A stretch of DNA of 64,000 nt, from NCBI RefSeq assembly GCF_011009555.1, contig NZ_QXHD01000004.1, forward strand, positions 7,133,302-7,197,301, given 5' to 3'. Source of the stretch: Adonisia turfae CCMR0081. GTDB taxonomy: Bacteria; Cyanobacteriota; Cyanobacteriia; Phormidesmidales; Phormidesmidaceae. The notes beneath the pieces were generated by a model that made no database searches, was not told where the DNA came from, and worked only from the letters and a program-made list of their open reading frames with translations. Positions 11,599 through 31,580 of this stretch are shown piece after piece (the stretch's first letter is position 1; each line of letters starts with the position of its first letter). The position numbers and the translations under genes were made by a program.

Positions 11599-11615
11599 GT
11601 TCGTTTTCATCCCAA

Positions 11616-11655: not shown

Positions 11656-11677
11656 GGTCCCTATTCCCCTACGACAT

Positions 11678-13698: not shown

Positions 13699-13706
13699 GA
13701 GCGCTG

Positions 13707-14426: not shown

Positions 14427-14439
14427 TTTTTCATCCATT

Positions 14440-14483
14440 CCAATTGTGTAGGGTCGTTCCATGGAACGACCCTACACAATTGG
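14440..14483. repeat. Dispersed palindrome, CCATGG type (copy 2)
   Basis: A perfect 44-bp palindrome centred between 14461 and 14462. The arms are CCAATTGTGTAGGGTCGTTC and its complement. It sits in the 81-base gap between the coiled-coil gene and the solute-binding-protein gene. Confidence 0.9.
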
Positions 14484-14507
14484 CCCCATTCCCCATTTTT
14501 CTCCACC

Positions 14508-15605
14508 ATGGTTACCAAACCCGTTACCTCCCTTGCCATCATCGTTGCCTCTGCCGGTCTCGCCTACGCCCCTCTCCCCGGTGTTAACCAATCCATTACC
14601 ATTGTTAGCGGCAGCGAACTTCAGGAACCTCTTAAACTTCTCGAAACTCGTTTCGAACAACAGAATCCTTCGATTCAAATCAATCTTGAATTCCAAGGTT
14701 CCCAAGATATTGTCAACAAATATATTGATGATAACAATGACTTTGAACCCACAGTGCTAATTCCGGCCAATGGTCAACTATTGGACGAACTAAGCCAACG
14801 TTGGAAGGCACAGTACGGTGATGAGCCCTTTTATGAAACGCCCCAACCCATTGCAAAAACCATGCTTGTAGCAGTCTCCTGGCCAGAACGAGCCCAGGCA
14901 CTATTCCCTGGCGGTGAGTTTCAGTGGCAGCGTGTGGAAGACGCCATGACGGGTGGTAATTGGGACAAAATTGGTGGCAATGCCGCTTGGGGCAGTTTTG
15001 ACTTTGTAACGACTGATCCTACCCGCTCTAACAGTGGTCAGCTGACGATGAGTTTATGGTCACAATCTGAGGCTAATAGCAACAGCCTCAATACGGGTGA
15101 CTTTAGCAAAGACAATGTACAGACCTTGTTTGGGTTGGTAAAACGCTCTGTTTATCAGCCACCCAGGTCTACGGACATTTTATTGCAAGAGTTTATTACT
15201 CGCGGTCCCAACGATGCCGACATTGCCACCGTATATGAGAGTATTGCCCTCCACCGTTGGGAACAGTCCAGCGCAACCCAAGGCCAGCCCTATCAAATCC
15301 TTTACCTAGATCCGACCATCGAGACTATTTCCACCGCTGTCATTGTGCGACGTGATGTAAACGGTGGTGAAGCTAACGCTGCTCGCGCATTTATTGACTT
15401 TTTGATGGAGCCCGGGCAGCAGGCCGTATTTGTGCAGCATGGCTTTCGTCCAATGAATGCCAAAGTTGATATTAATTCTGTTCCCAACAGTCCTTGGAGT
15501 AAAAATATTCCTGGAGCAACAACAGATCCAACTGGACGGGTGAGTACTCCCCCAGATCGTTCTGTAGTTGAAGAGGTGATTCGCCAGTGGCAGCGCGCTA
15601 ATTAA
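14508..15605 (+). CDS. Periplasmic solute-binding-like protein
   Basis: This 365-residue protein has an N-terminal signal or anchor (about residues 6-22, TSLAIIVASAGLAYA). The remainder resembles type 2 periplasmic binding proteins: ITIVSGSELQEPLKLLE at the start, an SFDFVTTDPTRSNSG ligand-loop-like motif in the middle and AARAFIDFLM near the end. Residues 140-330 parallel the binding-protein half of the upstream VWA lipoprotein. No ABC permease or ATPase genes are adjacent, so it may sense or deliver a ligand for that lipoprotein rather than serve a normal transporter. Its 3' end overlaps the convergent gene at 15598 by 8 bases. Confidence 0.8.
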   Translation: MVTKPVTSLAIIVASAGLAYAPLPGVNQSITIVSGSELQEPLKLLETRFEQQNPSIQINLEFQGSQDIVNKYIDDNNDFEPTVLIPANGQLLDELSQRWKAQYGDEPFYETPQPIAKTMLVAVSWPERAQALFPGGEFQWQRVEDAMTGGNWDKIGGNAAWGSFDFVTTDPTRSNSGQLTMSLWSQSEANSNSLNTGDFSKDNVQTLFGLVKRSVYQPPRSTDILLQEFITRGPNDADIATVYESIALHRWEQSSATQGQPYQILYLDPTIETISTAVIVRRDVNGGEANAARAFIDFLMEPGQQAVFVQHGFRPMNAKVDINSVPNSPWSKNIPGATTDPTGRVSTPPDRSVVEEVIRQWQRAN

Positions 15606-17481
15606 CCGTAGCTCTAAATCGGACAAAGCCATAGGCACCGGTTGGAGCACTCGAAGCAGGCGGTACATCTCCCACATTGACAATAATGAAACCATTGTCC
15701 TGGGTCTGACTGCCCAGGGTCAAATCGTAACGACAATAGTTTAAAGAAGCGCTATTGCTGGCAATATAGGCCCCTATATCCAGATCTTCAGTGTTAGTGA
15801 AAACCTGATTCCCATTAGCCAGCCCTAACATGATGCCAGTGTCAGGATTAAATGCATCGTTGGCAAAGGTGAGATAGTCGGGGATGCGATCGCACAGTCG
15901 AAAATCCTGCGCTACAGTACTACCGTTAGAGAGAAAATAGATCGTGTACTCAATCTCATCCCCTGGCTGCACGCTGATACCACCTACAACTCCACTCAGA
16001 TAGTTAGCTGGCCACTCGGCTGCATTATCGTCATCATCGGAGCTACCCACATCTACATAGGTGTCGTCAAATACCTGTTCATCAGCCTGTCCTCGGTTGA
16101 TAGCCGTAATTCTTTTAACTAAAGCCATTTGAGCATTGCCCGCCGGGTCAAATGGAAAATTAATATTCAAAATATCTGTTGTCAAAAGGGTTACTTGGCG
16201 CGGATTTATTTGAGACGCCTCCGCATCACCCCCACCATAGAGCAATCCTTTCAGATCTCCATCGGTTTCATCAATATCTACCCAGTAGTTTGTATTCTCC
16301 GCCAGGTTAGTAAATGAATACTCTCCGCCATTTTGCGTCTCCTTAACCTCAATCAGTAAGTCGTCACCATTGGTTTCTAGAATATTATCGCCGTCATCCT
16401 TATAAAGTGTGACAGTTACCTCATCTAGTCCGCGCTCACCACTGCTCAGCAAATCATCTTGACTCGTGTCCTCAAAGGCATTACCACTAATGTGGCAGCC
16501 CGCTGCCATACCAGAAGTCATAAAAATAGATTGAGTAGCTCCCCCATCTAAGGATGCACCCACTGCATAGGTAATTTGGGTAGTATCAATAAACGTATTT
16601 TGATAATCAACGACAATTCGATTACTAGGGTCATTTTCTGAGGGGTTGGGACCTAATCCCTCGGTATTAGAGGCATTCGGATTATCCGTTGATGATGAAT
16701 CATCTGTGAATGTGTGTTTATTACCTGAGAGACTCTCCACCAGGATAGACCCAACATAGGTATTGGTAGAGCTAATGGATGTCCCACCCAAAAAACTTTC
16801 AACCTCAAGGATGTCTCGAAACCGGACATTACTGTTAACGTACTGACTGTCAACATCCCCCGCCAGGACACGAGCATTACCAATGGGACGATTGTATTCA
16901 ACTTCCAGAACCCAGCTATCACCAGGGTCGCCTTCACGCTCCGTCAGCCTGGGAGTGCTAATCCCTGTTCTTGGATCGGTAAACTCAATAAAAAATACAT
17001 CTGGATCATTGCCAGTGGCTATAAACTTACCACTGTTGTTGTTAATGGCAACAGTACGCATCGTGGCCGTAGTTCCATTAGGGGCCGTTGCTGTCCATAC
17101 CGTATCTACAGAATACTTAGGCCTGGCATTACTTCCTCCAGTCATGCCAAATGGCTCACGGTCAGGCACAAAGTCGCCAAATGCCATATCGTGACAGCTC
17201 AAAGAGAGAGGAGCCTGAGGTGAACTATCCGGCCATGCCTCTACAGGCAGATTATTTGCTTGAGCAGGTAAGGCTGTCATTAACGTGGTCGCAATACTCG
17301 TTGCCAGTGCCAAAGAATGGGCCGCGACCATTTTCCCATTGTGTATTTTTTTCGAGGGTGCACCCAACAACCGCTGCTGAATCAAACTAACCAGCGGCAA
17401 AGACTTTTCTGCCAGCTGTTTTCGAACTCTGACCCTGTGAGGATTTAGAGCGACGAGACGCTCAAGTAATGATGAAAACAC
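15598..17481 (-). CDS. Secreted DUF11/SdrD-B-type surface protein A
   Basis: 627 residues. A signal peptide is visible at about residues 51-76 (MVAAHSLALATSIATTLMTALPAQA), so the true start may be the internal ATG at 17331; the longest frame opens with GTG. Residues about 90-330 are beta-rich and Asp/Asn/Thr-rich. Residues about 335-430 resemble an SdrD-B/Cna-B fold (SGNAFEDTSQDD opening, GEYSFTNL). The last 176 residues (452-627) are the shared C-terminal domain of this cluster, with VKRITAIN, PGDEIEYTIYF, LCDRI and GAYGFVRF. It is probably displayed at the cell surface. It is the last gene of the minus-strand array. Confidence 0.8.
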   Translation of the reverse strand: MFSSLLERLVALNPHRVRVRKQLAEKSLPLVSLIQQRLLGAPSKKIHNGKMVAAHSLALATSIATTLMTALPAQANNLPVEAWPDSSPQAPLSLSCHDMAFGDFVPDREPFGMTGGSNARPKYSVDTVWTATAPNGTTATMRTVAINNNSGKFIATGNDPDVFFIEFTDPRTGISTPRLTEREGDPGDSWVLEVEYNRPIGNARVLAGDVDSQYVNSNVRFRDILEVESFLGGTSISSTNTYVGSILVESLSGNKHTFTDDSSSTDNPNASNTEGLGPNPSENDPSNRIVVDYQNTFIDTTQITYAVGASLDGGATQSIFMTSGMAAGCHISGNAFEDTSQDDLLSSGERGLDEVTVTLYKDDGDNILETNGDDLLIEVKETQNGGEYSFTNLAENTNYWVDIDETDGDLKGLLYGGGDAEASQINPRQVTLLTTDILNINFPFDPAGNAQMALVKRITAINRGQADEQVFDDTYVDVGSSDDDDNAAEWPANYLSGVVGGISVQPGDEIEYTIYFLSNGSTVAQDFRLCDRIPDYLTFANDAFNPDTGIMLGLANGNQVFTNTEDLDIGAYIASNSASLNYCRYDLTLGSQTQDNGFIIVNVGDVPPASSAPTGAYGFVRFRATVN

Positions 17482-17817
17482 TGTATAAAAAAATACTTGC
17501 CTTGGTTTTCTTAGCTTGCCTTAAAGATCAGCGATAATCTCTCGGGAATTTTACTAAAATACTTGACATAAAATACTGAAAAAGACAGAAGAGATTTAAT
17601 CAAAATGCTTTGATATTTAAGCATTTTGGGGCTCAAAGTCCTTCATATGAATCTAATCAGCCTATTCTTTATTTTTGTCTATAAACTTGAATTTAAGATA
17701 GTACTAAATACGTGATTTTACTAGTATGACCCATCAAGCTCCAAAGCCATGATCTTATACTTGTCAGTACTTACTTACATCACAAAATGTATTCATCTCA
17801 ACTGGAAACCGCTATAT
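17482..17817. other. Intergenic region with a hairpin
   Basis: 336 AT-rich bases between two minus-strand genes. A nine-base-pair hairpin (AAAATGCTT at 17602-17610, AAGCATTTT at 17619-17627) could end the small gene upstream in the direction of transcription. The rest probably holds the promoter of the gene at 15598. No coding sequence was seen. Confidence 0.45.
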
Positions 17818-18141
17818 CTATTGAACAGTTTCTCTTGATGTATCTCTTGTCTGATTATGGTTTAAGTTAGTACGCTCTGAAGACGTTGAGTTGTTTGTTG
17901 CAACATCTTCTAACTCCACACCATCAACTATATTAGATTCAATCTGCTGCACATCATTATCAACGTTTTCTATGAAACTTCCCACTGCCTGACTCTCAAT
18001 CAGAATCATTGGCTTGTCGTTGCTGTTGGCTAACACAGGTGCCCCACAGACCAAAATGCCGCTGTATATAATCAAAGAGGGAACTGCCTGCTTTGCAGGT
18101 GTCTGGCTAAGGTTTGCTAGATATGGTGGCAACAAAGACAT
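17818..18141 (-). CDS. Orphan N-terminal module of the surface-protein family
   Basis: 107 residues with a signal peptide (about 15-39, ending APVLA) and an AGGAAG site upstream of the ATG. After the signal, residues about 48-75 (IESQAVGSFIENVDNDVQQ) align with the N-terminal module of the neighbouring exported proteins (compare NQATGSFINPVNNSQ at 23543 and NQATGSFVDPSDSSTQ at 27228). Nothing corresponding to DUF11 or the shared C-terminal domain follows; the last 35 residues are polar and low in complexity. It could be a remnant of a deleted surface protein or a small secreted component. Confidence 0.6.
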   Translation of the reverse strand: MSLLPPYLANLSQTPAKQAVPSLIIYSGILVCGAPVLANSNDKPMILIESQAVGSFIENVDNDVQQIESNIVDGVELEDVATNNSTSSERTNLNHNQTRDTSRETVQ

Positions 18142-18268
18142 AGATAGCTATTCTTCCTTTCAGACCCTATGATGCCTGTATAGTTGCTAGTTTGACTTCG
18201 GTGAAACTCCTTGAGAATATGGCTTGTTATTGTAGCAACTCTGCAATGTCAGGACAATACTGATTTGT

Positions 18269-18302
18269 GTTGTAGGGGCACTCCACGGAATGTCCCTACA
18301 AC
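18269..18302. repeat. Dispersed palindrome, degenerate copy (copy 3)
   Basis: 34 bases with arms GTTGTAGGGGCACTCC and GGAATGTCCCTACAAC around CCACGG. Two mismatches and one G-T pair break the symmetry. It belongs to the dispersed family and lies between the orphan gene and the large surface-protein gene. Confidence 0.75.
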
Positions 18303-18328
18303 GATGTCATTGGTAAAAATCGGATTGC

Positions 18329-21300
18329 TTATTCATCCACCTTGGTGGTAAACCGAAAATAGCCATAGGCATTGGTGGGTGTCCCTTGCCCGGTGGTGTT
18401 AGGTAATGTGGCCAATCCGGTTGGATTACCGGTTGTGCCAGTGATATCGACCACCACCACTTCATCGGTGGCGGATGTGCTAAACCCAGAGAGATTACAT
18501 GTCGGTACCGCAGGTAGATTGCCCACTGTGGTCACCTCGCCTCGATCAACAGTTGTGGCATCGCTATCATCAGTGAGATTGTAGGTGGTGCTGCCGATAA
18601 CTAGCTCAATGTCGTTGCCACCATAAAGTCCAGTAACAAAACTCTGATTCGGCTGAATCCAGTCACAGATTCTCACGGTTTCGGCTGTAGTGCCACCTGC
18701 GTTGAGGAAATACACTGTGTATTCAATCTCGTCACCAGGGTTGACCAATCCTGCATCAAGTTCACCTAGCAGATAACCATTTGGCCAGTTACTCATGTCA
18801 TCAGCCGAATTTGTAACATTATCGTTGACTATCCCATTGAGGGTGGTATTGTCGTTAGGATTTTTGGTGCGATCGCCATTGATGGCCGTAATCCGTTTCA
18901 CCAATACTACATCAGCGTTACTCGACACGACCGTAAACGTGGTCGGATCATCAATGGGGGGTGAGTCCGGGTCGTCGCTAGGGAAGGTTTGTGCACCGAA
19001 GGAGAGGGATGCCTGGTTATCAATGTTGCCCACTGGAGCATTGTTATCAACAACAGCATTTACTGTGAAAGTGACACTGTTGGTAATGTTATCCACACCG
19101 TTAGGGATGTTAATGCTGCTGATGCTCAGTGCAGTGTCATTAAATGTGGTGACGGTGCCACCACCAGGGGATGCAACACTCAGACTGTTGGTATCAAAGG
19201 TAATGTTGGGGTCCGTGAGGACATCCTCAAAATCAATAAAAATGTCGCTACCATACCCGTTGTATAACACGTAGGTATAGGTGACCGTATCACCGGGAAA
19301 TGCAATTTCAGGTTCAACATTTTTGGTGAGGGCGGGTGGAGTACAGGAAGTGGCATCAAATTTATCATTGGTAAACACTGGTCCCACCCGGTGGACAACA
19401 GCGGGCGACCGGGTCAAATCAACGGCAAAGAGGGCATTATCACCACCAGCCACATTGCGATAAAAGTAGCTGATGCCGCTGCTGGTGGCCCAAGACCCTC
19501 CTGAATTAAAGGGTACGGGGTCACCTGTCGTTGTAACAACGGTTGCAGCTCCTCCTGTTGGTGGAATACGATAGAGATTTCCCTGGGTGATGCCGTATAA
19601 CTGACCATCAACAGGATTGAAATTAAGGTCATCGGGATCATTGGGTAGCCCTGTAATAGCAAAAGTTTGGTAGGTGAGGCTACCATCGGTAGGAGTGTCA
19701 CCAATCGCAACAACTCGCAGTGTGTTGCCATCTACCATGTTGTAGTAATTACCACGGCCATCCATGGTGCCACTAAACCAGGCGGGGGTATTCAGTTCGG
19801 TAGACGGATCGCTCACTAAGGTGGCTCGACCTAACCCTTCAAGGGTGCCATCGGCGCTGATGCGCACAATCTCGCGCGGTTGGAAACTGGACTCACCTAG
19901 AGTATTGATGACAACACCATAGAGGTAGTTATCCAAAATGTTATAGGCTAAACCATTGACTTCGATGGGAGGATCAAAGTTTGGGGACGTAGCGGTATTA
20001 ATTGAGTTAAAGCTCAGGGTGGTTGGGTCAAAGATACCGAATTCGGATGGACTGTTGATGATGGAATAGGCGGAGGTGTCGCAGGCAAAGGTGGGACCAG
20101 AAAATGTGCTAGCACGAGTTCTCACCGTAGCATCGACAGATGGAATAAAGCCTAAACTAGGATGGTCAGGAGTTCCCTTGAAATTATTGGTATAAATGTC
20201 ACCGCCGAGACTACCCGTAGATGACATCGTTAGTCGCAGCCGCCGCGTCGGATCCCCGGCATTCATAGCGGGTGCTGTGATCAAAACTGCCGTGACATCA
20301 GAATAATCGGCCGCAGGACAACCTCCTGCTCCACTAGTAATATCAGCAGGAGTACACCAGACTGTACTGCCATTTTGAGTCGCTGGGTTATCACTGATAT
20401 TGTTGGGACTATCGTTGGTGAATTGGAAGGTAAAACCCGCATTATCTACATCCTGAATAGTTTTAAAGATAGGCGTGGCTGTATAATCTGTGGGCGGGGT
20501 ACCCACACCATCAAACGCATCTCGAATAGAGCCATCGCCCTCATAGGGAAGGATATCGATGAATTCAGAGCCTGCTGTTACATCAATATCTTCACTGAGA
20601 TTGGCCAGATACAGATCATAAACAATATCTTCTCCTGGCTCTATTTCTGGTGTGACCGCCTCTTTGAAAATGGTAAATGCTGCATTGTTGACGATAGTAA
20701 CCGAACGGATATCGGTACGCGATTCTAAAGGAGAGGAGTCAAGGTCCGAACCAGTATCATCTAGAGCAGCAACAGATGCTTGGTTGGCAATACTGGTGCC
20801 ACCGACAATATCAAACCCCGCCTTAGCTTCGAAGGTGATCGTCGGAATCGGCACATTGGGAGAGTAATCGCCTAAGCTCCAGCTCAGAGTCGTAGTTCCA
20901 TCTCCATTCGCGATCACGCTGTCAGGGGTAATATTGGCAGATCCGGTAACGTAGCTGAGTTCTGTGGGCAAGGTATCGGTCACCACAATCTCAGCCTCAG
21001 AGACATCGCTGGTTAATGCTGTGAGGGTGGTCTCTAGGGCAAAGGTAATATTCTCAGTTGCCTTAACGGTATTAACGGAGTCATCTGCTTCCGTTCCATT
21101 AGTTGGATCATCGGTGCTTTTATCAATTCGGACGATCGCACGGGTGAGCTGCAGGCGATCACCGTCATCATTTCCGCTATGGTCAACGGGGTTATAAGAC
21201 CCGACATCCCAATTGCCACTCTTGAGTTCATCTACCCGAGAGGTAACAAAATTAGCAAGAATTGTCGGATCGGGGATTTGTATCCCCGTCACTGGATCAA

Positions 21301-23200
21301 TATTAAGAACCTGCAGGTGAAGCACAGCGTCTATACGGAAGCCTTCTGGCAGAACACCATCCACTCCGCTAGGCCGAATCCGTACTCGGGTGACTTGAGG
21401 AATCAAACCAGGATTGCTGGCCAGGTTAGCTTCGCTATACCAGGTGGCATCACCATCATTGCAGGTGGCGTTGCGCTGAGCCTCAAACCGAGTCACGTCT
21501 CCAATCGCCGCTGTTTCACCCCCATAATAGCTATCTGTTGCAGTGTCGCCTCCTACACCATACTCAATAATCACATCTGACTCTGTCAGCCGTTGACCTC
21601 CCGTGCGGAATTCCACATATTGACCACTGGTGGGATTAGGGGCCAAAATTTGGGTACGGTTATCAAACTTGTCGCACAGCATAACATTGGTTAAATCGCC
21701 AACACCCGTGTTCCTAATAGTGAAATAACTACCAACGCTCTCACCTGGGAGCACGACACCATCGCCGGATTCAATGTCTGTCATAGGATACAACACGCTG
21801 TTGTTATTGAAATTACCACCGCTGTAGGGAGTACGATAATATTTGTCCTGGCTACGCCCTGACTGGGGCTGCTGCAACGCAAATGTTCGATCATTGTTTA
21901 CATCATCACTGTTACTGATGGGAACGGTGACATTCCCTCCTTGGTCCGGTTCTATATTGGACTGATTGGTAACACTTGGGGTATCGAGAAAGTCATAATA
22001 GTTTGTAACTGTGAGCTGATTTCCCCCGGCTGGAAAATCACTCGTAGGTATCCAAATCTCTACAACTCCGGCGACTAGATGAGTGTCATGAACATTGAGG
22101 GTACCTCCATTGGCATTTAGGGTAGGACGATGTTGACCAGACAAGTCGGCATCGGTAATGGTGATAGTAATGTCGTTGCCTGCACCGCTTTGACTACAGC
22201 TCCAGGTACCAGAATCTGTGACAGCATTTGTCTCTTGTCCTGCCCCGGCAATACTTAGGGAGCCCAATGGGAGTTCTCTGATCCAAGATCCGGCAATACT
22301 GTTGTCTTTGGTATTGGGGGCACAGCCCGATCGTCCACCCCAAGTATATAAACGGGCATTGGGGGAAATGCCACTCACCACATCAGTGATAATCATTTGA
22401 TTGCCTGGGGTACTCGGATCGTCATCACCCAAGACCTCGCTCCCTTTTGGAGCAATAATTGACAGGGGCCAGACATAAAGCACCCCTTCTTCGCCTCCAG
22501 GCCCCTCGGTTAATGTACCGACTCGACGAGGAGCGCCGGAGTCATCCTTCGCCAGGTCCATTTGTGGTGTGGCTGAAACTTTCACCTGGGTAGGGCCTGC
22601 TGAGAGATTACCGGCACTAGAGGTGAGATTAGCGTTTACTTCCAGATCTGCACCATGGGGAGCTGTGCCTAAAACAGCGGCTGTAAAGTCAAAGAAGCCG
22701 GTGGTTGAGGTGGGTAGGGGTTCGGTACATGTGAGGGTTTTGCGATCGCTACTAACCGACACACTCCCAAGACATGAACTTTGGTTCTCTTCCCACAAAT
22801 GATAATCATCGCCAATGGTGACTGTGATCGTCGTACTGCCATTGGGCTGAGTATCGGTGGCATAGTTAACCCGATAGGTGACAGTATCATAGGTCCGCAC
22901 AATCCCATTCTCATCATTAGCATCATTCCCCGCATTACTAAAGCCAGGGTAGGTTGGATCAGGTCCCGAGAAGTTTGCAGTACCATCACTTCTAACACTT
23001 ACTCCAAATGTTGTCACCTCTGCTGTTGCTGTCGTTGCAAATATTCCACCCATCATACTTGCAAGCCCCAATGTGGCTAACAAGTAATTACGAGAAGACA
23101 AAAAATAGTGGCCTTTTCTAGAGTTAGGACAACTGTTTTCTTTCTTTGCGAAATGATGATGAATCCCCAAGGAATTTAGAGATAGGAATGGAATTTGCAT
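18329..23200 (-). CDS. Giant secreted DUF11-type surface protein B
   Basis: 1623 residues, the largest protein in the window. A long basic N-terminus precedes a signal-like helix (about residues 38-60, ending TATAE). The rest is almost all beta and rich in Asp, Asn, Thr and Gly. At least two DUF11-like repeats are visible in the middle: one starting IDKSTDDPTNGTEADDSV with the ENITFALETT strand, another with FTIFKEAVTPEIEPGEDIVY. Residues about 1060-1310 contain repeated short blades (VNGLAYNILDNYLYGV, DDLNFNPVDGQLYGI) resembling a beta-propeller of the DUF6923 kind. A third DUF11-like repeat (LTKNVEPEIAFPGDTVTY) follows. Residues 1431-1623 are the shared C-terminal domain, about 83 percent identical by eye to that of the protein at 29421. 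Confidence 0.85.
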   Translation of the reverse strand: MQIPFLSLNSLGIHHHFAKKENSCPNSRKGHYFLSSRNYLLATLGLASMMGGIFATTATAEVTTFGVSVRSDGTANFSGPDPTYPGFSNAGNDANDENGIVRTYDTVTYRVNYATDTQPNGSTTITVTIGDDYHLWEENQSSCLGSVSVSSDRKTLTCTEPLPTSTTGFFDFTAAVLGTAPHGADLEVNANLTSSAGNLSAGPTQVKVSATPQMDLAKDDSGAPRRVGTLTEGPGGEEGVLYVWPLSIIAPKGSEVLGDDDPSTPGNQMIITDVVSGISPNARLYTWGGRSGCAPNTKDNSIAGSWIRELPLGSLSIAGAGQETNAVTDSGTWSCSQSGAGNDITITITDADLSGQHRPTLNANGGTLNVHDTHLVAGVVEIWIPTSDFPAGGNQLTVTNYYDFLDTPSVTNQSNIEPDQGGNVTVPISNSDDVNNDRTFALQQPQSGRSQDKYYRTPYSGGNFNNNSVLYPMTDIESGDGVVLPGESVGSYFTIRNTGVGDLTNVMLCDKFDNRTQILAPNPTSGQYVEFRTGGQRLTESDVIIEYGVGGDTATDSYYGGETAAIGDVTRFEAQRNATCNDGDATWYSEANLASNPGLIPQVTRVRIRPSGVDGVLPEGFRIDAVLHLQVLNIDPVTGIQIPDPTILANFVTSRVDELKSGNWDVGSYNPVDHSGNDDGDRLQLTRAIVRIDKSTDDPTNGTEADDSVNTVKATENITFALETTLTALTSDVSEAEIVVTDTLPTELSYVTGSANITPDSVIANGDGTTTLSWSLGDYSPNVPIPTITFEAKAGFDIVGGTSIANQASVAALDDTGSDLDSSPLESRTDIRSVTIVNNAAFTIFKEAVTPEIEPGEDIVYDLYLANLSEDIDVTAGSEFIDILPYEGDGSIRDAFDGVGTPPTDYTATPIFKTIQDVDNAGFTFQFTNDSPNNISDNPATQNGSTVWCTPADITSGAGGCPAADYSDVTAVLITAPAMNAGDPTRRLRLTMSSTGSLGGDIYTNNFKGTPDHPSLGFIPSVDATVRTRASTFSGPTFACDTSAYSIINSPSEFGIFDPTTLSFNSINTATSPNFDPPIEVNGLAYNILDNYLYGVVINTLGESSFQPREIVRISADGTLEGLGRATLVSDPSTELNTPAWFSGTMDGRGNYYNMVDGNTLRVVAIGDTPTDGSLTYQTFAITGLPNDPDDLNFNPVDGQLYGITQGNLYRIPPTGGAATVVTTTGDPVPFNSGGSWATSSGISYFYRNVAGGDNALFAVDLTRSPAVVHRVGPVFTNDKFDATSCTPPALTKNVEPEIAFPGDTVTYTYVLYNGYGSDIFIDFEDVLTDPNITFDTNSLSVASPGGGTVTTFNDTALSISSINIPNGVDNITNSVTFTVNAVVDNNAPVGNIDNQASLSFGAQTFPSDDPDSPPIDDPTTFTVVSSNADVVLVKRITAINGDRTKNPNDNTTLNGIVNDNVTNSADDMSNWPNGYLLGELDAGLVNPGDEIEYTVYFLNAGGTTAETVRICDWIQPNQSFVTGLYGGNDIELVIGSTTYNLTDDSDATTVDRGEVTTVGNLPAVPTCNLSGFSTSATDEVVVVDITGTTGNPTGLATLPNTTGQGTPTNAYGYFRFTTKVDE

Positions 23201-23542: not shown

Positions 23543-25204
23543 CTATTCAACTACTTGGGTCGTAAATCGAAAGAAACCAAAAGCGTTGCTAGGCAAATCT
23601 TGTCCAGATATACCAGGCAATGTAGTTAACCCAGTGGGTTCACCGATTGTTCCAGTAACATCCAACACCAATACATTATCGTTGAGAGCAGTGTCGTCAG
23701 ATAGATTACAAGTAGGATTTGTAGACAAGCTACCTACAGTTGTTAATTCTGCCCTATCAGTTACATCGTTCGTAGCGGTTAACTGGTAGGTGCTACCACC
23801 AATATCAAGCGCAATGTCTTTTCCATCATATAGGTTGGGCGCAGAAGCTCCATACAGACCAGTAACAAAATTCTGGTTAGGCTGTATCCAGTCGCAGAGC
23901 CTTACATCCATAGCCTCCCTGCCCCCAGTATTGATAAAATATATTGTATATTCAATCTCATCGCCGGGCTTTACTAAGCCTGCATTAATCTCACCAATCA
24001 GATAATCTGTAGGCCAGTTCCTGTTATCATCAGCGGAATTAGCGATATTGTCATTGACTTCAGTGTTGAGAGGCGTGTTGTCGTTTAAGTTAACCGTGCG
24101 GTTGCCATTGATAGCCGTAATCCGTTTGACGACGAGTACTTCAGGCGGTCTGACAACATTAGCACCGATAAAACTAAGGTGTTCGCTATCGGCATTGTTG
24201 TTGCCTGCTGTACTGTCATCATCGCCGACAATGAGCATGACTTTTTGTATACGTTCGATCTCACCATTATCAACAAAGCCAATCCAGCGAGTTGATTGGT
24301 TGCCACAGCCTGGTTCGTTATTGGCTGTGCCGCCACACAGGCTTTGAACAACCAGTTCTGGGTCGGGTTCGTTACTGTCATAGAGAGAATTTGGCGCAAT
24401 TTCAATATCGTTGCCAATGCGGTTATTCGAGGCATCCAGAAGCCTTAAAATTGCTGGTGTTCCGTTGCCATCAGTGCGAGTTTCTAAGTCTCCTACCCAG
24501 AAGCCAAACGAGCTAACTGGTTGGTCAAATGATAGGAGAACGGTATTGCGTTTGAGATCACTCAAAGCGCCGGCGTGAGTCTCATTCCAAAATCGGGGTT
24601 GGTCATTACTTTCATAAAGGCTGGTCGGACGGGGTGCTGAACCTTGCAAAGAACTACTACTGCTGAGGGTAGGACTTGAGCCTGCAATCGTAGGCTCTCC
24701 AGCACATGCAGTCTCCCCTATGGGAATCTGTACCAACTCAACAGAGACATTGACTATATTGTCGATGACAGGATCGTGATAGCTAAAATTGTTAACGCTA
24801 CCCTGAGGAACACTAGCGGTTCCAAACCAGTTTTCTAACGCAGGATCGGTTGGTTGACCAACCGCAGTTCGCCAATCATCGTCCAAGATGTCTACTAAAT
24901 CGCGGGTGGCAATGACATTGCGTCTGACCTCACCGCTGATATAAGGGATAATGCTAGGGTCAGATGTACCGCTACCGATGGTGCAGCCGTCTGAGTCGGT
25001 GGTCACCATGACAGATGAACTTGTCCGTGTCTCTTGTGAGTTGTTAACTGGGTTAATAAAGCTCCCTGTGGCTTGGTTTTTAAGCGCAGTGCCAGGTGCT
25101 GGAGCATCTGCCCGAGCTGAACGATCAATCAATGCTCCATGAGATAACAATATTATGACAATTAGGGCATGTTTGAGGCCCCAACTGAGTAACTGACATT
25201 TCAT
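23543..25204 (-). CDS. Secreted surface protein C of the DUF11 cluster
   Basis: 553 residues with a signal peptide (about 10-33, ending SARADA). Residues 36-65 are the shared N-terminal module (PGTALKNQATGSFINP). Residues about 130-345 form a beta-rich domain with FGFWVGDLETRT, resembling lectin-like domains of cyanobacterial exported proteins. Residues 356-553 are the shared C-terminal domain (VKRITAIN, PGDEIEYTIYF, LCDWIQPNQ, PTCNL, FRFTTQV). Unlike protein B it has no clear central DUF11 repeat. It is next to B in the same orientation across the 342-base gap at 23201. Confidence 0.8.
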   Translation of the reverse strand: MKCQLLSWGLKHALIVIILLSHGALIDRSARADAPAPGTALKNQATGSFINPVNNSQETRTSSSVMVTTDSDGCTIGSGTSDPSIIPYISGEVRRNVIATRDLVDILDDDWRTAVGQPTDPALENWFGTASVPQGSVNNFSYHDPVIDNIVNVSVELVQIPIGETACAGEPTIAGSSPTLSSSSSLQGSAPRPTSLYESNDQPRFWNETHAGALSDLKRNTVLLSFDQPVSSFGFWVGDLETRTDGNGTPAILRLLDASNNRIGNDIEIAPNSLYDSNEPDPELVVQSLCGGTANNEPGCGNQSTRWIGFVDNGEIERIQKVMLIVGDDDSTAGNNNADSEHLSFIGANVVRPPEVLVVKRITAINGNRTVNLNDNTPLNTEVNDNIANSADDNRNWPTDYLIGEINAGLVKPGDEIEYTIYFINTGGREAMDVRLCDWIQPNQNFVTGLYGASAPNLYDGKDIALDIGGSTYQLTATNDVTDRAELTTVGSLSTNPTCNLSDDTALNDNVLVLDVTGTIGEPTGLTTLPGISGQDLPSNAFGFFRFTTQVVE

Positions 25205-25279
25205 TTGTGCGCAACCCTGACAAAATGTGCCTGGTTATCCCAGTGCTCTCATTAAGGTGCCCACCCATAGTTTTCTCAT

Positions 25280-25564: not shown

Positions 25565-25594
25565 TAGAGGAGCGGACGTTTCCTTTGGCAGGTT

Positions 25595-27205
25595 ATGGCA
25601 CCGGTATTCACAGATCGATTCTTTAATACGGCGGGTCCGGTGCGGGCTGATTGGCACTATCTGATCGATCCGTTGACCCGTTGGGCTATGGATGACATTC
25701 TCCAGCTGATTGCCCAGGGAAAATATTTTGTGCTGCATGCACCCCGGCAGACAGGGAAAACCTCCTGTTTGCTGGCCCTGATGGAGTATCTCAATGCTGA
25801 GGGGCGCTACCAGGCGGTTTATGCCAATATTGAGACGGCCCAAACCGCTAGAAATGATGTTTTTCGTGGCATTGACACCGTTGTCTATACCCTGGCATCA
25901 ATGGCTCAGCTTTATCAGCAAGATGCTCGATTGCATGACTGGCGACAGGCAATGCTCAAGCAATCGGCACCAGCCGATGATATGCTGCGTAGCCTATTAT
26001 CCCAATGGGCTACTCAAACGGACCAACCCATTGTTCTATTTTTGGATGAAGTGGATGCACTGGTGGGGGATACGCTGGTTGCCCTGTTGCGTCAGTTGCG
26101 AGCAGGCTATACCCAACGACCTCAGAATTTTCCTCTATCAATTATTCTCTGTGGGGTACGGGATGTGCGGGACTATCGCATTCAAACCACAGGACAGGAC
26201 ATTATTACCGGGGGCAGTGCATTTAATATTAAGGCAGAATCCCTGCGATTAGGTCATTTTATTGAGTCTGAGGTGCAGGCATTGCTCCAGCAGCACACGG
26301 ATCTGACGAAGCAGGTGTTTACGCCAGAAGCACTAACTTACATATGGCAGCAGACCCAGGGGCAACCCTGGTTGGTAAATGCCCTGGCTTATCAGGTTTG
26401 CTTTAAAGGGGACGGTAAAAAGCGCACCCAACCCATCACCCTGGAACTTATGAAAACTGCCCGAGAAAGTCTGATTCAACGGCGTGACACCCACCTGGAC
26501 CAGCTCACTGATAAACTCAAAGAGCCCCGAGTCCATCGGGTAATTGCCCAGATACTGGCTGGAGAAGTGCAGGTGGATGAGTTTCCTACGGATGATACCC
26601 AATATATTGAAGATTTAGGATTGATTCATCGTCGACCTACCTGGCAGATTGCTAACCCTATCTATCAGGAGATTATCCCTAGGGAATTAATTTGGACTAG
26701 TCAATATACGATTCAACAGGAACCCAATTGGTATATCCAGAGTGATAAACGACTGGATATGCCTAAGCTACTGAGAGCATTCCAACAGTTTTTTCGGGAG
26801 AATAGTGAAGTCTGGATCGAACGATTTGATTATAAAGAGGCCGGTCCTCAACTCCTGTTGCAAGCGTTTTTACAACGTATTCTTAATGGGGGTGGCAGAC
26901 TGACAAGAGAATATGGTCTGGGACGTAAACGTACCGATTTGTTAATTGAATGGCCCTTGGCTCAGGAGCAGGGGTTTCTCGGGCCAGTGCAGCGAGTGGT
27001 GTTGGAGCTTAAGATTTTATACCGGTCTTTGGAGGCCACTGTGGCTAATGGTTTAGCGCAAACGGCTGACTATGCGGATAAATCTGGAGCAGCAGAAGCC
27101 CATTTGATTTGTTTTAATCGCGATTCTCAGGTGAGCTGGGACGATAAGATTTTTGAACGGGTTGAATTGTACCAGGAAAGAACAATTTACCTATGGGGCA
27201 TGTAA
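25595..27205 (+). CDS. AAA-type ATPase with C-terminal PD-(D/E)XK nuclease-like domain
   Basis: 536 residues. The N-terminal half is an ATPase with Walker A HAPRQTGKTS near residue 50, Walker B IVLFLDEVDAL near residue 150 and a sensor-like region IILCGVRD. It resembles the AAA-like ATPases abundant in cyanobacteria. The C-terminal 150 residues include GRKRTDLLIEW and VVLELKIL, which fit the D and ExK positions of a PD-(D/E)XK nuclease. Such proteins are suspected of mobile or defence roles, but their function is not established. It is a plus-strand gene in an otherwise minus-strand cluster, 30 bases after the toxin remnant, so it probably arrived by insertion. Confidence 0.75.
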   Translation: MAPVFTDRFFNTAGPVRADWHYLIDPLTRWAMDDILQLIAQGKYFVLHAPRQTGKTSCLLALMEYLNAEGRYQAVYANIETAQTARNDVFRGIDTVVYTLASMAQLYQQDARLHDWRQAMLKQSAPADDMLRSLLSQWATQTDQPIVLFLDEVDALVGDTLVALLRQLRAGYTQRPQNFPLSIILCGVRDVRDYRIQTTGQDIITGGSAFNIKAESLRLGHFIESEVQALLQQHTDLTKQVFTPEALTYIWQQTQGQPWLVNALAYQVCFKGDGKKRTQPITLELMKTARESLIQRRDTHLDQLTDKLKEPRVHRVIAQILAGEVQVDEFPTDDTQYIEDLGLIHRRPTWQIANPIYQEIIPRELIWTSQYTIQQEPNWYIQSDKRLDMPKLLRAFQQFFRENSEVWIERFDYKEAGPQLLLQAFLQRILNGGGRLTREYGLGRKRTDLLIEWPLAQEQGFLGPVQRVVLELKILYRSLEATVANGLAQTADYADKSGAAEAHLICFNRDSQVSWDDKIFERVELYQERTIYLWGM

Positions 27206-27227
27206 GAAAATATTCATCATGGTGGGG

Positions 27228-28679
27228 TTACTTCACTCGGGCTCTAAATTTCACATGGCCGTAGGCTCCGGTGGCGTTGGTGGTAGCGTCAGGTAAATCA
27301 CCCAGGTTAACAACAACGGCACCGTTGGGGTTGGCATTGCTACCATTGCCGTCGCCGTCGCAGTCGATGTCGGGAAAGCTGTTGGCGGGGTCAACGCCGG
27401 GGGCAAAGTAAGTAGCACTATCGCCGTCGTTGGCTCCGGTGTGGTAGTCGGTGGTGCCATTGCGGAAGAGTTCGATGCTGAGGTCGGCTCCGCCGATGCC
27501 GCCGGTGGCTTGGGGGTTGTTGCCAGTGTAGGCGTTGGGGATAAAGGTGGTAAATGTGGGAATATAGTCGCAGAAGAGAACGTTTTCTGCGGTGGTGTCT
27601 CCGGAAGAGAGGAAGTAGATGGTGTATTCGATTTCGTCGTTGGGCATGACGTTACCGCCATTGATACCGCCTAGTAGATTGTTTGTGATATCCGGCCACT
27701 GATCTGTATCTTTTGGTGGATCTCCAGGATTGACCGGATCTGCAACCGTAATGTCGTTGTCATCATAGGGGTTACTGGCTTCATCCAGGTATTGAGCTAT
27801 GTCATCACCTTCGGTGGTAGTGGTTCCCCCATTAAGGGCGGTAATCCTTTTCACCAAAAGCACATTGGGATCAAGTGCGGCTGTGATCTCGACCGTTAAA
27901 CTATCCTCAGCTTCTCTTTCTCCATTAATCGGTGCACCTGTTGTGTCCCCATTATCCGTGCCCGAATTATCCTGGGTGTAGACATCATTTGACCCTGCCA
28001 CATAGGCCTCATTCTGACCATCTGTCGCCGCTGTATCCCCCAGGGTGACCGTTAAATCATTGCCTGCGGTCCCTGCCGTTACCGGTACCCGTACTGTAAT
28101 GCTGGCCCCTGCTGGAATAGAGCCATTGTTGGCACTGGCCACACCACTTAACAAATTACCAGTGGTCTCACCCCCACCGGGCACCGTAATATTGTTGCCC
28201 GTCAGATCAACCGCAGCCCCTGCCCCTATCCCATCGGCATCGTACTCAATAATTTGAATATCTCCTGCTTGGGTGCCATTGGTCACTGAAGCAGAGCCCG
28301 GAAGTACAAACTGGGTAGGATCGTTACCCACATTGGTGATTACAAAGTCTACATATACCGTATCGCCTTCATTGACGGTGCCGTCAGTGGGTTCGTTATA
28401 ACCATTGCTGACCACAGTGATACCTGCTACCTCAGCCACTTCCACCTGTACTTCATTGGAGATAATGGTCTGGGTGCTACTATCACTCGGATCAACAAAA
28501 CTACCTGTCGCCTGGTTCCGAATAATGGTCCCTGGGGCAGGACTATTGGCCCAGGCCATCATCCCCGGTGACAATACGCCTCCCGACAACAATATGGCGG
28601 CGATAATAGTCCGTGCCCGATTGGTTAACTGACGGCGGTTTGGTTTTGATTGATTGGGTGAAAGGCGACGGTTAGACAT
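27228..28679 (-). CDS. Secreted surface protein D of the DUF11 cluster
   Basis: 483 residues from the ATG at 28679; the longer frame from 28769 starts inside a palindrome and is not likely translated. A signal peptide (about 18-44) ends MMAWA. The shared N-terminal module follows (PGTIIRNQATGSFVDP, then VEVAEVAGITVV), the same VAE(V/I)AGITVV motif as in protein 41121. Residues about 75-260 look like one DUF11-type Ig fold (YVDFVITNVGNDPTQF). Residues 273-483 are the shared C-terminal domain with its own insertion (a Cys-Asp-rich SFPDIDCDGDGNG turn likely to bind Ca2+). Confidence 0.8.
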   Translation of the reverse strand: MSNRRLSPNQSKPNRRQLTNRARTIIAAILLSGGVLSPGMMAWANSPAPGTIIRNQATGSFVDPSDSSTQTIISNEVQVEVAEVAGITVVSNGYNEPTDGTVNEGDTVYVDFVITNVGNDPTQFVLPGSASVTNGTQAGDIQIIEYDADGIGAGAAVDLTGNNITVPGGGETTGNLLSGVASANNGSIPAGASITVRVPVTAGTAGNDLTVTLGDTAATDGQNEAYVAGSNDVYTQDNSGTDNGDTTGAPINGEREAEDSLTVEITAALDPNVLLVKRITALNGGTTTTEGDDIAQYLDEASNPYDDNDITVADPVNPGDPPKDTDQWPDITNNLLGGINGGNVMPNDEIEYTIYFLSSGDTTAENVLFCDYIPTFTTFIPNAYTGNNPQATGGIGGADLSIELFRNGTTDYHTGANDGDSATYFAPGVDPANSFPDIDCDGDGNGSNANPNGAVVVNLGDLPDATTNATGAYGHVKFRARVK

Positions 28680-28744
28680 TTTCAATAACCAAATTTTGTG
28701 TAATACTGAAAATTGGAATTTTTTGTAATACGGATAATCGTCCT

Positions 28745-28792
28745 CGATCCCTTTGTAGAGACCTTCCATGGAAGGTCTCTACAAAGGGATCG
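28745..28792. repeat. Dispersed palindrome, CCATGG type (copy 4)
   Basis: A perfect 48-bp palindrome, the longest copy, centred between 28768 and 28769, with arms CGATCCCTTTGTAGAGACC. It is 10 bases beyond the 3' end of the RAYT transposase gene. Confidence 0.9.
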
Positions 28793-28802
28793 TTGGGGCG
28801 GA

Positions 28803-29399
28803 TTACGTTATTGAGGGAGATTTTATTGGGGGCAATAATTTGCGGGGATGATTGCGATCGCGTCCCCAATTGCTCGGATTTTTGACGATATATCGCCGAA
28901 TATAATCAATTGATCTGTCGGCACGAATGATGTGTTCGTAGAACCGAGATTGCCATGCAAACCGAGAATACCCATTTTGGCGACACCATCGCGTTACCGA
29001 AGATTTATAGGACCGTACGATGGCACCTAAGGAACCTCGTTTTGGGGAAATCGCGGACATCTTCTGGGACAACGACGACCCCTCTTGTAGAGACCTTCCA
29101 TGGAAGGTCTCTACAAGAGGATTATCCAAACGACGTTCAATTATCAAAATTCCGTGGAGGTGATTGGGCATCACTACGTATTCATCAATTCGCACATTCT
29201 CACAATGGTCAGGAATCTCTTGCCAACACCGTTTTGCCATATGACCAATAGCTGAAAATTCCATAACACCATCCACTACATCACCGAAAAAACACTCCCG
29301 TTTTTTGGTGCATAGGGTCAAAAAATAACCACCTGCTCGTCTATAGTCCCTCTGCGGTAAACGCATGGAGGTACCCTTAAATCTGTTGCGATAAGCCAT
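28803..29399 (-). CDS. REP-associated tyrosine transposase (RAYT, Y1/IS200-like)
   Basis: About 198 residues. RAYT features are an HUH motif (PNHLHG near residue 83), a tyrosine motif RFYEHIIR, and RYIVKNPSNWG near the end. These proteins are single-strand nucleases thought to move or shape REP palindromes. In the variable linker after the HUH motif the reading frame runs straight through a 40-bp copy of the dispersed palindrome, giving the peptide LVETFHGRSLQE. Because the element is palindromic, both strands encode this peptide. The start at 29399 (MAYRNRF) is chosen for similarity to the family N-terminus. The catalytic residues look intact. Confidence 0.85.
   Translation of the reverse strand: MAYRNRFKGTSMRLPQRDYRRAGGYFLTLCTKKRECFFGDVVDGVMEFSAIGHMAKRCWQEIPDHCENVRIDEYVVMPNHLHGILIIERRLDNPLVETFHGRSLQEGSSLSQKMSAISPKRGSLGAIVRSYKSSVTRWCRQNGYSRFAWQSRFYEHIIRADRSIDYIRRYIVKNPSNWGRDRNHPRKLLPPIKSPSIT
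29081..29120. repeat. Dispersed palindrome inside the RAYT gene (copy 5)
   Basis: A perfect 40-bp palindrome centred on CCATGG between 29100 and 29101, with arms CCTCTTGTAGAGACCTTCC. It is inside the transposase coding sequence and keeps the frame open. AACGACG occurs just outside on both sides (29071-29077 and 29129-29135), which might mark a target duplication but is weak evidence. Confidence 0.9.
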
Positions 29400-29420
29400 C
29401 GTTAACATCACCAGGATCTC

Positions 29421-31580
29421 CTATTCATCTACCTTGGTGGTAAACCGGAAATACCCATAGGCATTGGTGGGAGTCCCTTGTCCAGTGGTATTCGGGAATG
29501 TGATCAACCCGGTCGGATCACCCGTTGTTCCCGTAATATCCACCACGACTACTTCATCGCTAGCGGTAGTACTAAACGAAGAGAGATTACAGGTGGGTGT
29601 CGCAGGCAGACTGTCCACCGTGGTCACCTCTCCCCGGTCGGTGGCCGTATCACTATCGTCAGTGAGATTGTAGGTGGTGCCGCCAATCACTAGCTCAATA
29701 TCGTTGCCGCCATACTGGCCAGTTACAAAACTCTGATTCGGCTGAATCCAGTCACAGATTCTCACGTCTTCCGCTGCACTATCTCCCGCATTGAGGAAAT
29801 AGACGGTGTATTCAATCTCATCACCGGGCTTTACTAGGCCTGCATCCAATTCACCCACTAGATAACCCGCTGGCCAATTGCTTTCGTCATCGGCAGAGTT
29901 AGCAACACCATCATTAACAATCTGGGTGAGGTCATGACTGTCATTAGGATTGGTGGTGAGCCCATTAATGGCAGTGATGCGTTTAACCAGAACAACATCT
30001 GGATTAGTTGATACTGCTGTCGTCGTAATCTCAGTACAATCATCCACCGCTGACGTATTCGGATCATCCGATACCCCCGAACCCGTATTTCCACTGGTCG
30101 CTCCGGTATAATCAATGCTCGCCTGGTTACAGACCAATTCCCCTGCTGTCGCTGTCACTGTCACATCAAAGGTCATTGTCACCGAGTCATTAATATTGAC
30201 CTGCCCCCCCTGGGATGCATTAGCCCCCGTCCCCACACGAAAGATCACATTACTGCCATCAAATTCCGCTTCGTCATCCCCGGAACCATCAGTTTTTGTT
30301 ACACCATTAATTTTCAAAGACCCCGGCACAAAAGTAGTTCCCGTCGGGATCGCGTCCGTAATCACCGTATTTGTAGAATTGTCATTCCCCGTGTTGGTTA
30401 CCGAAATGGTGTAAGGCATCGTATCGCCTGTGGTGTAGGTTGTTGAGGGAGTTGTTTTCTCAAACTGGGTGACCAAATTGGGCTCAAACACCTCTACAGC
30501 AAAGAAATAGGCGAGAGGCCAGATACCATCTCCTTGACTTTCTAAGGTCAGGTCAATACTTGTGGCATTGGTAGGGATTACGTTATTCGTTTGGTTCCAG
30601 ATAGTCAGATCTAAATAGTCAATATCAATGACCATGTTGTAGGGGGCATTGGGGGTTCGGCTAGTCACATGGTTACCAAATTTAGAAATTGTGCCATTGA
30701 AGAAGTTATTGGCTGGGTTCAGGCTATCCGTAATATTGTTATTGTTGATATGCAGGAAATCATCTGGTTGGTCCACTTCTCCATCGTTAGCAATGGCCCC
30801 CATAAAAACATCAAACCCTGGAGTAGGTGGAGTTCGGATACCAGTTAAGTTAAATGTTTTAAGACTGTTACGAACCACATCGTGGCCATCGAAGATAGAG
30901 ATATTACGAATTGGTTGAGTCGAATCTTCATAGACCACTACAATCGACCAACCTGCATTGGGATAGGTAAATCCTGCACCCGTATTAGATTGAACGTTTG
31001 CGACAGTATAGGTGCCATTACCTGCCCCTTGAACTAGAGTTGTAATGTCTGCGAAAGCTCCGTAGGTATGCCAGGAACCAAAGTCAGTACGGTCGTTTTG
31101 ATCGTCAGCAGTAATTGTTTGATAGGTACCGCTGCCCGGAATTTGCAGTGACACTTGGTTAAATCCAGTCAGGTTAGGAGCTGGAGTTGTGCCAAATCCT
31201 TCCAGACTGCCCCCCCAATAAAGAGCTGCAAACTGCACATTTGCCCCGGCAGGAATATTTAATTCTGCTGCACTGGAGTTAAAGGTGGAGCCATTACTAT
31301 CGATATCCAGCATCTGCATGGCTAAGCCGCCATTATTATTGCCTCTTGTGCCGTTGGCAAGACCATCTGCACAGGAGGCGTTGTTGCGATCGCAAATCAC
31401 TGACGCATTACCAATCGCTTCAATATTGCCAGATAGTTCAGTATTGTAGCGCTGGTCAAAATTAGGATACGAGGGATTAGCAAGGGCCTTGGTAGGAATA
31501 CCGACCATGAGGAGAAATAAACTAGCGGTTAATTTAACCGAAGTGCTTGGGGATAAATATTTAAGAACAGAATGTGACAT
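29421..31580 (-). CDS. Secreted DUF11-type surface protein E
   Basis: 719 residues with a signal peptide (about 15-35, ending KALA) and an AGGAGA site upstream. Residues about 45-370 form a single domain with FAALYWGGSLEG, TFGSW-like strands and NAGWSIVVVYED, a pattern seen at the N-terminus of DUF11 proteins. Residues about 370-510 are a DUF11 repeat (VTQFEKTTPSTTYTTGDTMP, then TFVPGSLKINGV). Residues 529-719 are the shared C-terminal domain, nearly the same as in the giant protein at 18329. Six cysteines occur in pairs, two of them in the C-terminal domain. It is 10-22 bases upstream of the RAYT start and in the same orientation. Confidence 0.85.
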   Translation of the reverse strand: MSHSVLKYLSPSTSVKLTASLFLLMVGIPTKALANPSYPNFDQRYNTELSGNIEAIGNASVICDRNNASCADGLANGTRGNNNGGLAMQMLDIDSNGSTFNSSAAELNIPAGANVQFAALYWGGSLEGFGTTPAPNLTGFNQVSLQIPGSGTYQTITADDQNDRTDFGSWHTYGAFADITTLVQGAGNGTYTVANVQSNTGAGFTYPNAGWSIVVVYEDSTQPIRNISIFDGHDVVRNSLKTFNLTGIRTPPTPGFDVFMGAIANDGEVDQPDDFLHINNNNITDSLNPANNFFNGTISKFGNHVTSRTPNAPYNMVIDIDYLDLTIWNQTNNVIPTNATSIDLTLESQGDGIWPLAYFFAVEVFEPNLVTQFEKTTPSTTYTTGDTMPYTISVTNTGNDNSTNTVITDAIPTGTTFVPGSLKINGVTKTDGSGDDEAEFDGSNVIFRVGTGANASQGGQVNINDSVTMTFDVTVTATAGELVCNQASIDYTGATSGNTGSGVSDDPNTSAVDDCTEITTTAVSTNPDVVLVKRITAINGLTTNPNDSHDLTQIVNDGVANSADDESNWPAGYLVGELDAGLVKPGDEIEYTVYFLNAGDSAAEDVRICDWIQPNQSFVTGQYGGNDIELVIGGTTYNLTDDSDTATDRGEVTTVDSLPATPTCNLSSFSTTASDEVVVVDITGTTGDPTGLITFPNTTGQGTPTNAYGYFRFTTKVDE

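Follow-up and report, generated by a model that had tools for sequence, protein, structure and literature searches.

In a 64,000-nucleotide stretch of the 8.66 Mb genome of the cyanobacterium Adonisia turfae CCMR0081 (contig NZ_QXHD01000004.1, positions 7,133,302 to 7,197,301; this whole stretch is hereafter the window), five minus-strand genes encode proteins that end in one common domain, which we will call the tail, and they belong to the same gene series as a predicted giant outer-membrane barrel, 33980-38155. We find that the genomic linkage of the tail to this barrel is near one-to-one among the cyanobacteria sampled, that the tail sits at the very end of the proteins that carry it, and that the parts ahead of it, the cargo, are exchanged while the tail is conserved. 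With a probability of about 0.55, we propose that the tail is a specialised DUF11/CLIPPER-type sandwich that would mark fibrillar adhesins for an outer-membrane complex encoded in the same operon. The closest named matches to the window are Leptolyngbya sp. Heron Island J and PCC 7375. Genes of the window are named below by their first coordinate.

The shared tail and its cargo

The five open reading frames (ORFs) in which the initial annotation had recognised the domain were all confirmed. Tails and cargo proteins are as follows, with the basis of each in brackets.

15601..16140, minus strand: tail of protein 15598-17481, 180 residues (profile match of 216.5 bits, ending at the stop)
18332..18922, minus strand: tail of protein 18329-23200, 197 residues (alignment and profile; AlphaFold2 model, one residue shorter at the start)
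23546..24151, minus strand: tail of protein 23543-25204, 202 residues (alignment and profile)
27231..27875, minus strand: tail of protein 27228-28769, 215 residues (alignment and profile)
29424..30008, minus strand: tail of protein 29421-31580, 195 residues (alignment and profile)
15598..17481, minus strand: cargo protein of 627 residues, with an SdrD_B-like stretch, under the Pfam cut-off, ahead of the tail (ORF, Pfam)
18329..23200, minus strand: cargo protein of 1623 residues, with DUF11-like stretches (ORF, domain scan)
23543..25204, minus strand: cargo protein of 553 residues (ORF)
27228..28769, minus strand: cargo protein of 513 residues, its N-terminal part related to 41121 (ORF, BLASTP)
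29421..31580, minus strand: cargo protein of 719 residues, with an internal DUF11 domain at residues 374-491 (ORF, Pfam)

The five tails align over 180-215 residues, including 7 residues upstream of the VKRITA motif. Their identity to the first tail is 37-84%, and all ten pairs are significant far beyond chance (BLASTP, E 1e-18 to 1e-114), as a common C-terminal domain would have it. The landmarks named in the initial annotation are present, although (G/N)A(Y/F)G..(R/K)F describes the closing motif more accurately. When 113 members are aligned, the five among them, ten positions are invariant: K8, R9, T11, W45, G52, T68, C85, D86, C141 and G186. TIGR01451, a DUF11-type repeat, matches 111/113 of these tails at E<=1e-3 and PF01345 matches 46/113, so that the tail is of DUF11 type by sequence. 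Indeed, its core PGDEIEYTIYF...CD.IP matches DUF11/CLIPPER (PF01345, TIGR01451, 9IFR), and a beta-sandwich is predicted with high confidence: the AlphaFold2 model of the 18329 tail has nine strands, with a mean predicted local distance difference test (pLDDT) of 93.1 and a predicted template modelling score (pTM) of 0.90. The tail differs from DUF11/CLIPPER, however, by about 45 extra residues between strand 1 and the PGDEIEYT strand (counted by eye), by an invariant KR.T, WP and cysteine pair, and by the Asn of the isopeptide triad, which is not constant. Aligned by eye, Lys8 and Asp86 fall at the isopeptide Lys and Asp places of DUF11/CLIPPER and are invariant in 113/113, whereas the candidate Asn183, also assigned by eye, is Asn in 63/113 and Asp in 17/113. 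The invariant cysteine pair suggests a disulphide.

Among solved structures, the tail has no sequence match at E<=1 and its model no Foldseek match at E<=0.001. Foldseek places two weak matches to pilus backbones first, RrgB (E 0.005) and a Streptococcus agalactiae relative (E 0.03); the CLIPPER domain 9IFR comes at rank 9 (E 0.08), and several weak matches are immunoglobulin-like (Ig-like). The tail of the five proteins is a single Ig-like domain, predicted to be a beta-sandwich and a specialised and derived relative of DUF11/CLIPPER.

The initial annotation had staked its proposal of a sorting module on a profile search that would find the domain always at the C-terminus and always near a barrel. 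For the first point, we counted matches of at least 60 bits that start within 6-8 positions of the profile start. For 113/113 distinct tails, taken from the window and from fetched loci, 0-4 residues separate the end of the match from the stop, and 0 in 88 of them; this count leaves out ten internal matches scoring 11.9-27.9 bits, as well as L006 at 39.9 bits. With an improved profile, 137/138 distinct proteins (ORFs complete at the 5' side) end no more than 5 residues past the match, the exception being L172, at 57 residues. In L172 and in the divergent, lower-scoring L167 and L174, the second cysteine and a closing strand running to the stop can be recognised by eye. Of the 131 relatives in the contig scan, 80 were retained, which make up 76 loci.

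Ahead of this constant end, the 138 proteins carry from 141 to 2018 residues. The tails of 29421 and 18329 are 83% identical with no detectable similarity ahead of them. Window tails that are 83%, 62% and 61% identical sit on N-terminal parts without a BLAST match, and so do the alike tails of the L014 pair (74%) and of the L157 pair (74%). Over all pairs of the 138 proteins, the match density is 1.00 for the tails and 0.215 for the N-terminal parts (E<=1e-3). Among same-locus pairs, which are not independent because loci from close relatives were counted apart, 40/56 have no match between N-terminal parts though their tails stay alike; tails within one locus are up to 89% identical. The view that the N-terminal parts in the window are unrelated holds for the most part, with a correction: 23543 and 27228 have 48 residues in common (E 3.5e-8), while the other pairs among the five proteins have no BLASTP match at E<=1. 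Outside the five, 27228 is related to 41121 across 290 residues (E 2.6e-20). CshA_NR2, GEVED, SdrD_B or DUF11 domains were found in the N-terminal parts of six of the eight proteins scanned, the other two matching nothing, and this make-up is that of fibrillar adhesins. A strongly hydrophobic 12-residue window lies near the start of 131/137 tailed ORFs and of 26/124 control segments; this test is crude, and its outcome fits Sec signals.

Linkage to the giant barrel

The linkage was examined in 194 cyanobacterial genomes of completeness at least 90, with tail and barrel called at E<=1e-10. Both are found in 25 genomes, the tail only in 0, the barrel only in 1 and neither in 168 (Fisher test 1.3e-30, which ignores kinship); by genus, the tail is found in 18/94 and the barrel in 19/94, and the linkage spans ten numbered families. 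In the barrel-only genome, G164, a divergent tailed gene lies downstream of the barrel at 37 bits, below the threshold. In 386 genomes, a set that includes again the positive ones of the first, the counts are 42 with both, 1 with the tail only, 4 with the barrel only and 339 with neither (Fisher 2.3e-50, again ignoring kinship). The outcome that was to refute the initial proposal, a domain widespread in genomes lacking the barrel, was not seen: tails without a barrel occur in 0/25 and 1/43 tail genomes, and in the latter, G329, the tailed gene runs off the contig end. As for barrel-only genomes, the barrel of G195 is remote, in G196 the barrel gene is cut off by the end of its 3993-base contig, and G281 has a 46-residue match with two stops (G281:C1:1210746-1210883), perhaps the trace of a lost operon. 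DUF11-type proteins as such occur in 44/194 genomes, 26 with and 18 without the barrel, and none of these 18 has a tail at E<=1e-10. The link between tail and barrel is stronger than a reading of the sequence alone could know.

This link is also one of position. In the 194 genomes, 39/40 tail matches lie within 25 kb of a barrel, 38 of them downstream on the barrel strand; in G110, the tailed gene and the barrel are convergent, 78 bases apart. In the window, the minus-strand series runs from 43868 to 15598 in the order 41121, 40432, 38155, 33980 and 31722, followed by the tailed genes 29421, 27228, 23543, 18329 and 15598. Its members ahead of the tailed genes are:

41121..43868, minus strand: DUF7925 protein, 915 residues (Pfam)
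40432..41013, minus strand: small single-DUF11 protein, 193 residues (domain scan, hhalign)
38155..39702, minus strand: DUF11 and SdrD_B protein, 515 residues, fused to the barrel in Acinetobacter (Pfam, locus comparison)
33980..38155, minus strand: giant outer-membrane barrel of 1391 residues, its front part made up of Ig-like domains, co-occurring with the tail (homologues, model)
31722..33839, minus strand: beta-helix and OmpA-domain protein, 705 residues, operon member (Pfam, locus comparison)

Of the two proteins proposed to end in divergent relatives of the tail, 40432 does match the DUF11 core of the tail (hhalign 91%, 43 columns), but 41121 only weakly so (17%, 21 columns). The whole genome of A. 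turfae has ten DUF11-type matches: eight in the window operon, one beside a second barrel and one in an orphan.

The operon recurs around other barrels. Stretches of 18-20 kb were fetched around 31 barrels from 26 genomes, the window's own main barrel not being among them. Homologues of 38155 are found at all 31, tailed genes at 30, and homologues of 40432 and 41121 at 22; 31722 has a separate-gene homologue at 13/31. Nine of the 31 loci form a second subtype, with no 40432 or 41121 homologue by phmmer in these stretches, and eight of the nine have a tailed gene. From this set, the C-terminal counts given above leave out eight internal matches to tailed proteins (21-34 bits), four to homologues of 40432 (22-24 bits), L167 at 37 bits and L174 at 50 bits. 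Among 83 sources (contig pieces of relatives, own-genome pieces and the window), 39 have a barrel homologue; many of the pieces are cut by contig ends or by the 10 kb flank, so that the remainder is no count of absence. Outside the window operon, the A. turfae genome has one barrel without a tail (L168) and one orphan tail (L174). Each comes with a run of N, at 9986-9995 inside the OmpA gene of L168 and at 8576-8585 near the start of the orphan ORF of L174. These runs are probably scaffold joins, and the second barrel and the orphan tail may therefore belong to one operon, split by the assembly.

Barrel and tail trees, compared over 66 loci with only the nearest tail of each, correlate (rho 0.54, 0/999 permutations). 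Three genomes have two or three barrels; at their eight loci, barrel and tail share the nearest neighbour in 4/8, and the sets of three nearest overlap in 8/8. Such agreement is as expected of inheritance as a unit, whether through physical contact or through a shared operon.

The barrel itself has relatives at 48-98% identity (28/29 complete barrels were aligned, L068 being left out). Its Ig-like front gives weak Invasin_D3 and Big_1 matches in Pfam, and by sequence the barrel matches only glycoside hydrolases, four at E<=1 and one at E<1e-3, all within the Ig-like region. In the model (pLDDT 73.5), 37 strands of at least 9 residues follow model residue 205 inclusive, and 32 of these start at residue 453 or later, in the last 620 residues; this count would presumably place 33980 in the size class of the largest single-chain barrels known. 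Foldseek gave 247 structure matches at E<=0.001, and the 50 listed are diverse large barrels and Ig domains of glycoside hydrolases, which we do not use as evidence. In L160, L162, L163 and L164, the barrels extend 370-595 residues past the end of the profile match, with no OmpA by Pfam in this extension; weak phmmer matches had hinted at a fusion of OmpA to the barrel in L160, L163 and L164, which Pfam did not confirm.

Several neighbours deserve a mention. Between two tailed genes of the window lies an IS200-transposase relative (Y1_Tnp, below the Pfam cut-off; 28803-29411, same strand). An AAA-like ATPase gene on the plus strand (25595-27205) interrupts the tailed series, and its homologues are found near tailed genes in PCC 7375 (L008, L009). 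The segment 11974-15605 encodes a protein that has no Pfam match and two of solute-binding type, of which one contains a VWA domain, and homologues of all three adjoin tailed genes in L007 and L008. A contig labelled Candidatus Gracilibacteria (L071), perhaps a misbinned cyanobacterial one, combines two tailed genes with homologues of 38155, of the barrel and of the OmpA gene. The five homologues on the Synechococcus sp. NIES-970 plasmid carry the annotation "hypothetical protein".

Counterparts and known systems

A tblastn search of plasmids with the barrel returned 28 records, two of them cyanobacterial at 99% cover; the remaining ones are weaker and mostly from Proteobacteria, three being from Deinococcus or Thermus. 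Plasmid p4 of Acinetobacter haemolyticus (CP085288.1, L175) has a distant counterpart of the operon, with a 2008-residue protein in which a 38155-type part precedes a barrel (barrel profile E 2e-80). The cluster, at 2840-15205, comprises DUF11 genes, this fusion, an OmpA gene and a large DUF11 protein; from the fusion on, the order is that of the window. Two further L175 proteins have a common C-terminal DUF11-type domain (26% over 130 residues, E 5e-10), but this domain matches the cyanobacterial tail profile in the DUF11 core only (19 and 3.5 bits). Short genes precede the fusion, perhaps as fragments of a broken gene. Eleftheria has a single protein that contains both an OmpA domain and a remote barrel, and a remote barrel of Devosia and of Roseivivax has a giant SdrD/DUF11 protein directly upstream. 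Such fused and neighbouring genes suggest a joint function of barrel, OmpA, 38155 and DUF11 proteins.

An autotransporter is marked by the aromatic last residue of its membrane-inserted C-terminal barrel. The last residue of the tail is not aromatic in 137/138 proteins, ending instead in K, N, E, D, P, R, Q or G, and we reject the tail as a membrane-inserted barrel strand. The barrel has no Pfam match at E<=0.1 to usher, autotransporter, two-partner or chaperone-usher families, nor to a Slam/DUF560-type family (the presence of its model in the library being unchecked). We accordingly found no ground to place it among type XI secretion systems (T11SS), ushers or autotransporters. The likeness to type XI is one of arrangement: Slam cargo has a variable N-terminal part and a common C-terminal beta domain and was predicted by co-occurrence with the barrel gene (PMC12282271), and the same three features are found here. 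The Slam cargo domain, however, is an eight-stranded beta-barrel, whereas the tail is a DUF11-type sandwich with DUF11-type relatives only.

The cargo itself resembles the fibrillar adhesin B9T28_05395 of Acinetobacter silvestris, with CshA_NR2-like, GEVED-like and DUF11 stalk domains (PMC12617251): CshA_NR2 and GEVED are found in L009 cargo, and GEVED in L016 cargo. The adhesin differs in that it ends in its own OmpA-like anchor, while here the tail takes that place and OmpA is encoded separately. For a DUF11 protein of Synechococcus sp. PCC 11901, not necessarily a member of this operon, the signal peptide alone put 14.3% of eYFP outside the cell (PMC13297417). The open literature that we searched has no description of the operon or of the tail; literature beyond it was not covered.

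What the tail may do

A constant module, exchangeable cargo and one linked barrel are what a sorting or docking module predicts, and the initial proposal is to this extent partly supported; the tail is a derived DUF11/CLIPPER fold, which could equally serve as an anchor or a fibre subunit. On the reading that we favour, tailed adhesins would cross the inner membrane by means of Sec signal peptides and would fold, tail included, in the periplasm. The folded tail would then be bound by the barrel with its Ig-like domains and by the DUF11/SdrD partner 38155, and the adhesive N-terminal part would thereby be exported through the barrel, or held at it, facing outward. The OmpA protein would tie the complex to peptidoglycan. 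The tail may act in this as an export signal, an anchor, both, or a fibre subunit, and the present evidence is compatible with each of these roles. More tentatively, the operon could represent an undescribed export and display pathway, in which a single-chain giant barrel exports folded fibrillar adhesins recognised by a C-terminal DUF11-type sandwich, as an analogue independent of types IX and XI present in cyanobacteria and, in fused form, in Proteobacteria.

Several points weigh against our reading. Any subunit of a single complex would show operon linkage and agreeing trees, and the tail, being a derived DUF11 fold, may simply be the last stalk unit. The cargo lies beside the barrel, so a free-standing sorting code is not in evidence; tail genes are not scattered like type IX cargo, and 19/25 tail genomes have a single match. 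N-terminal parts are related in 16/56 same-locus pairs (L144, L161 and L071, for instance, and 23543/27228 in the window). The barrel model has a low global confidence (pTM 0.50), and none of its 50 structure matches listed has a template modelling score (TM-score) above 0.30.

The tail could also join the adhesins to a common surface fibre made with 40432 and 41121, with the barrel as an usher-like platform, in which case it would bind DUF11 domains rather than the barrel. Its match to the DUF11 core of 40432, the two pilus backbones as best, though weak, Foldseek matches and the invariance of Lys8 and Asp86 at the isopeptide places all fit such a fibre. We nevertheless consider it rather doubtful, as eight of the nine barrel loci without a 40432 or 41121 homologue in the fetched stretches have a tailed gene, and as the candidate isopeptide Asn is so often replaced. 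Tandem duplication and recombination might, for their part, have spread a tail with no role in recognition, the barrel being a porin or receptor that is in the operon by chance. The tailed genes are neighbours, tails of one locus are very alike and some of their N-terminal parts are related, all of which such hitch-hiking would produce; but it appears unlikely in view of a linkage that spans ten families, of the many genomes with a single tail match, of the 40/56 pairs whose tails stay alike without any N-terminal match, and of the 18 DUF11-bearing genomes that have neither barrel nor tail.

A true type IX secretion system (T9SS) with an odd C-terminal domain is highly improbable. SprA of this system is a very large outer-membrane barrel, as 33980 is modelled to be, and the T9SS structures 8gl6 and 8gl8 are among the barrel Foldseek matches listed, at ranks 7 and 22. 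The export signal of type IX cargo such as RgpB is an Ig-like C-terminal beta-sandwich (PMC4804311), and the tail, on varied cargo, is modelled as one too. However, the TM-scores to 8gl6 and 8gl8 are 0.09-0.14, and other large barrels rank above them. No T9SS tail family matches the cargo or the tails in Pfam, in line with the statement of the initial annotation that the sequence differs from the type IX signal. Por_Secre_tail (PF18962) has no match in the A. turfae genome at E<=0.001, where one control, Bacteroides ihuae, did match, below the cut-off; SprA_N has no Pfam match in the barrel, and its absence from the rest of the genome is uninformative since no control matched. Tailed genes moreover adjoin the barrel (39/40) instead of being scattered. 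We reject T9SS membership on the lack of T9SS tail families at the cut-offs used and on the cargo beside the barrel. Tail and barrel fail the family marks tested for T9SS and T11SS, and may be an analogue of these systems.

How large adhesins reach the cyanobacterial surface and stay there is, to our knowledge, poorly known. The operon gives a defined candidate signal, the tail, and a candidate partner, the barrel, in 25/194 sampled genomes of the phylum. If our reading is true, types IX and XI would be joined by a further C-terminal-domain system, giant barrels of a class now annotated as hypothetical proteins would gain a role, and a phylum used in biotechnology would have a natural display tag. 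The linkage of tail and barrel suggests a little-known way to place sticky proteins on the cell surface.

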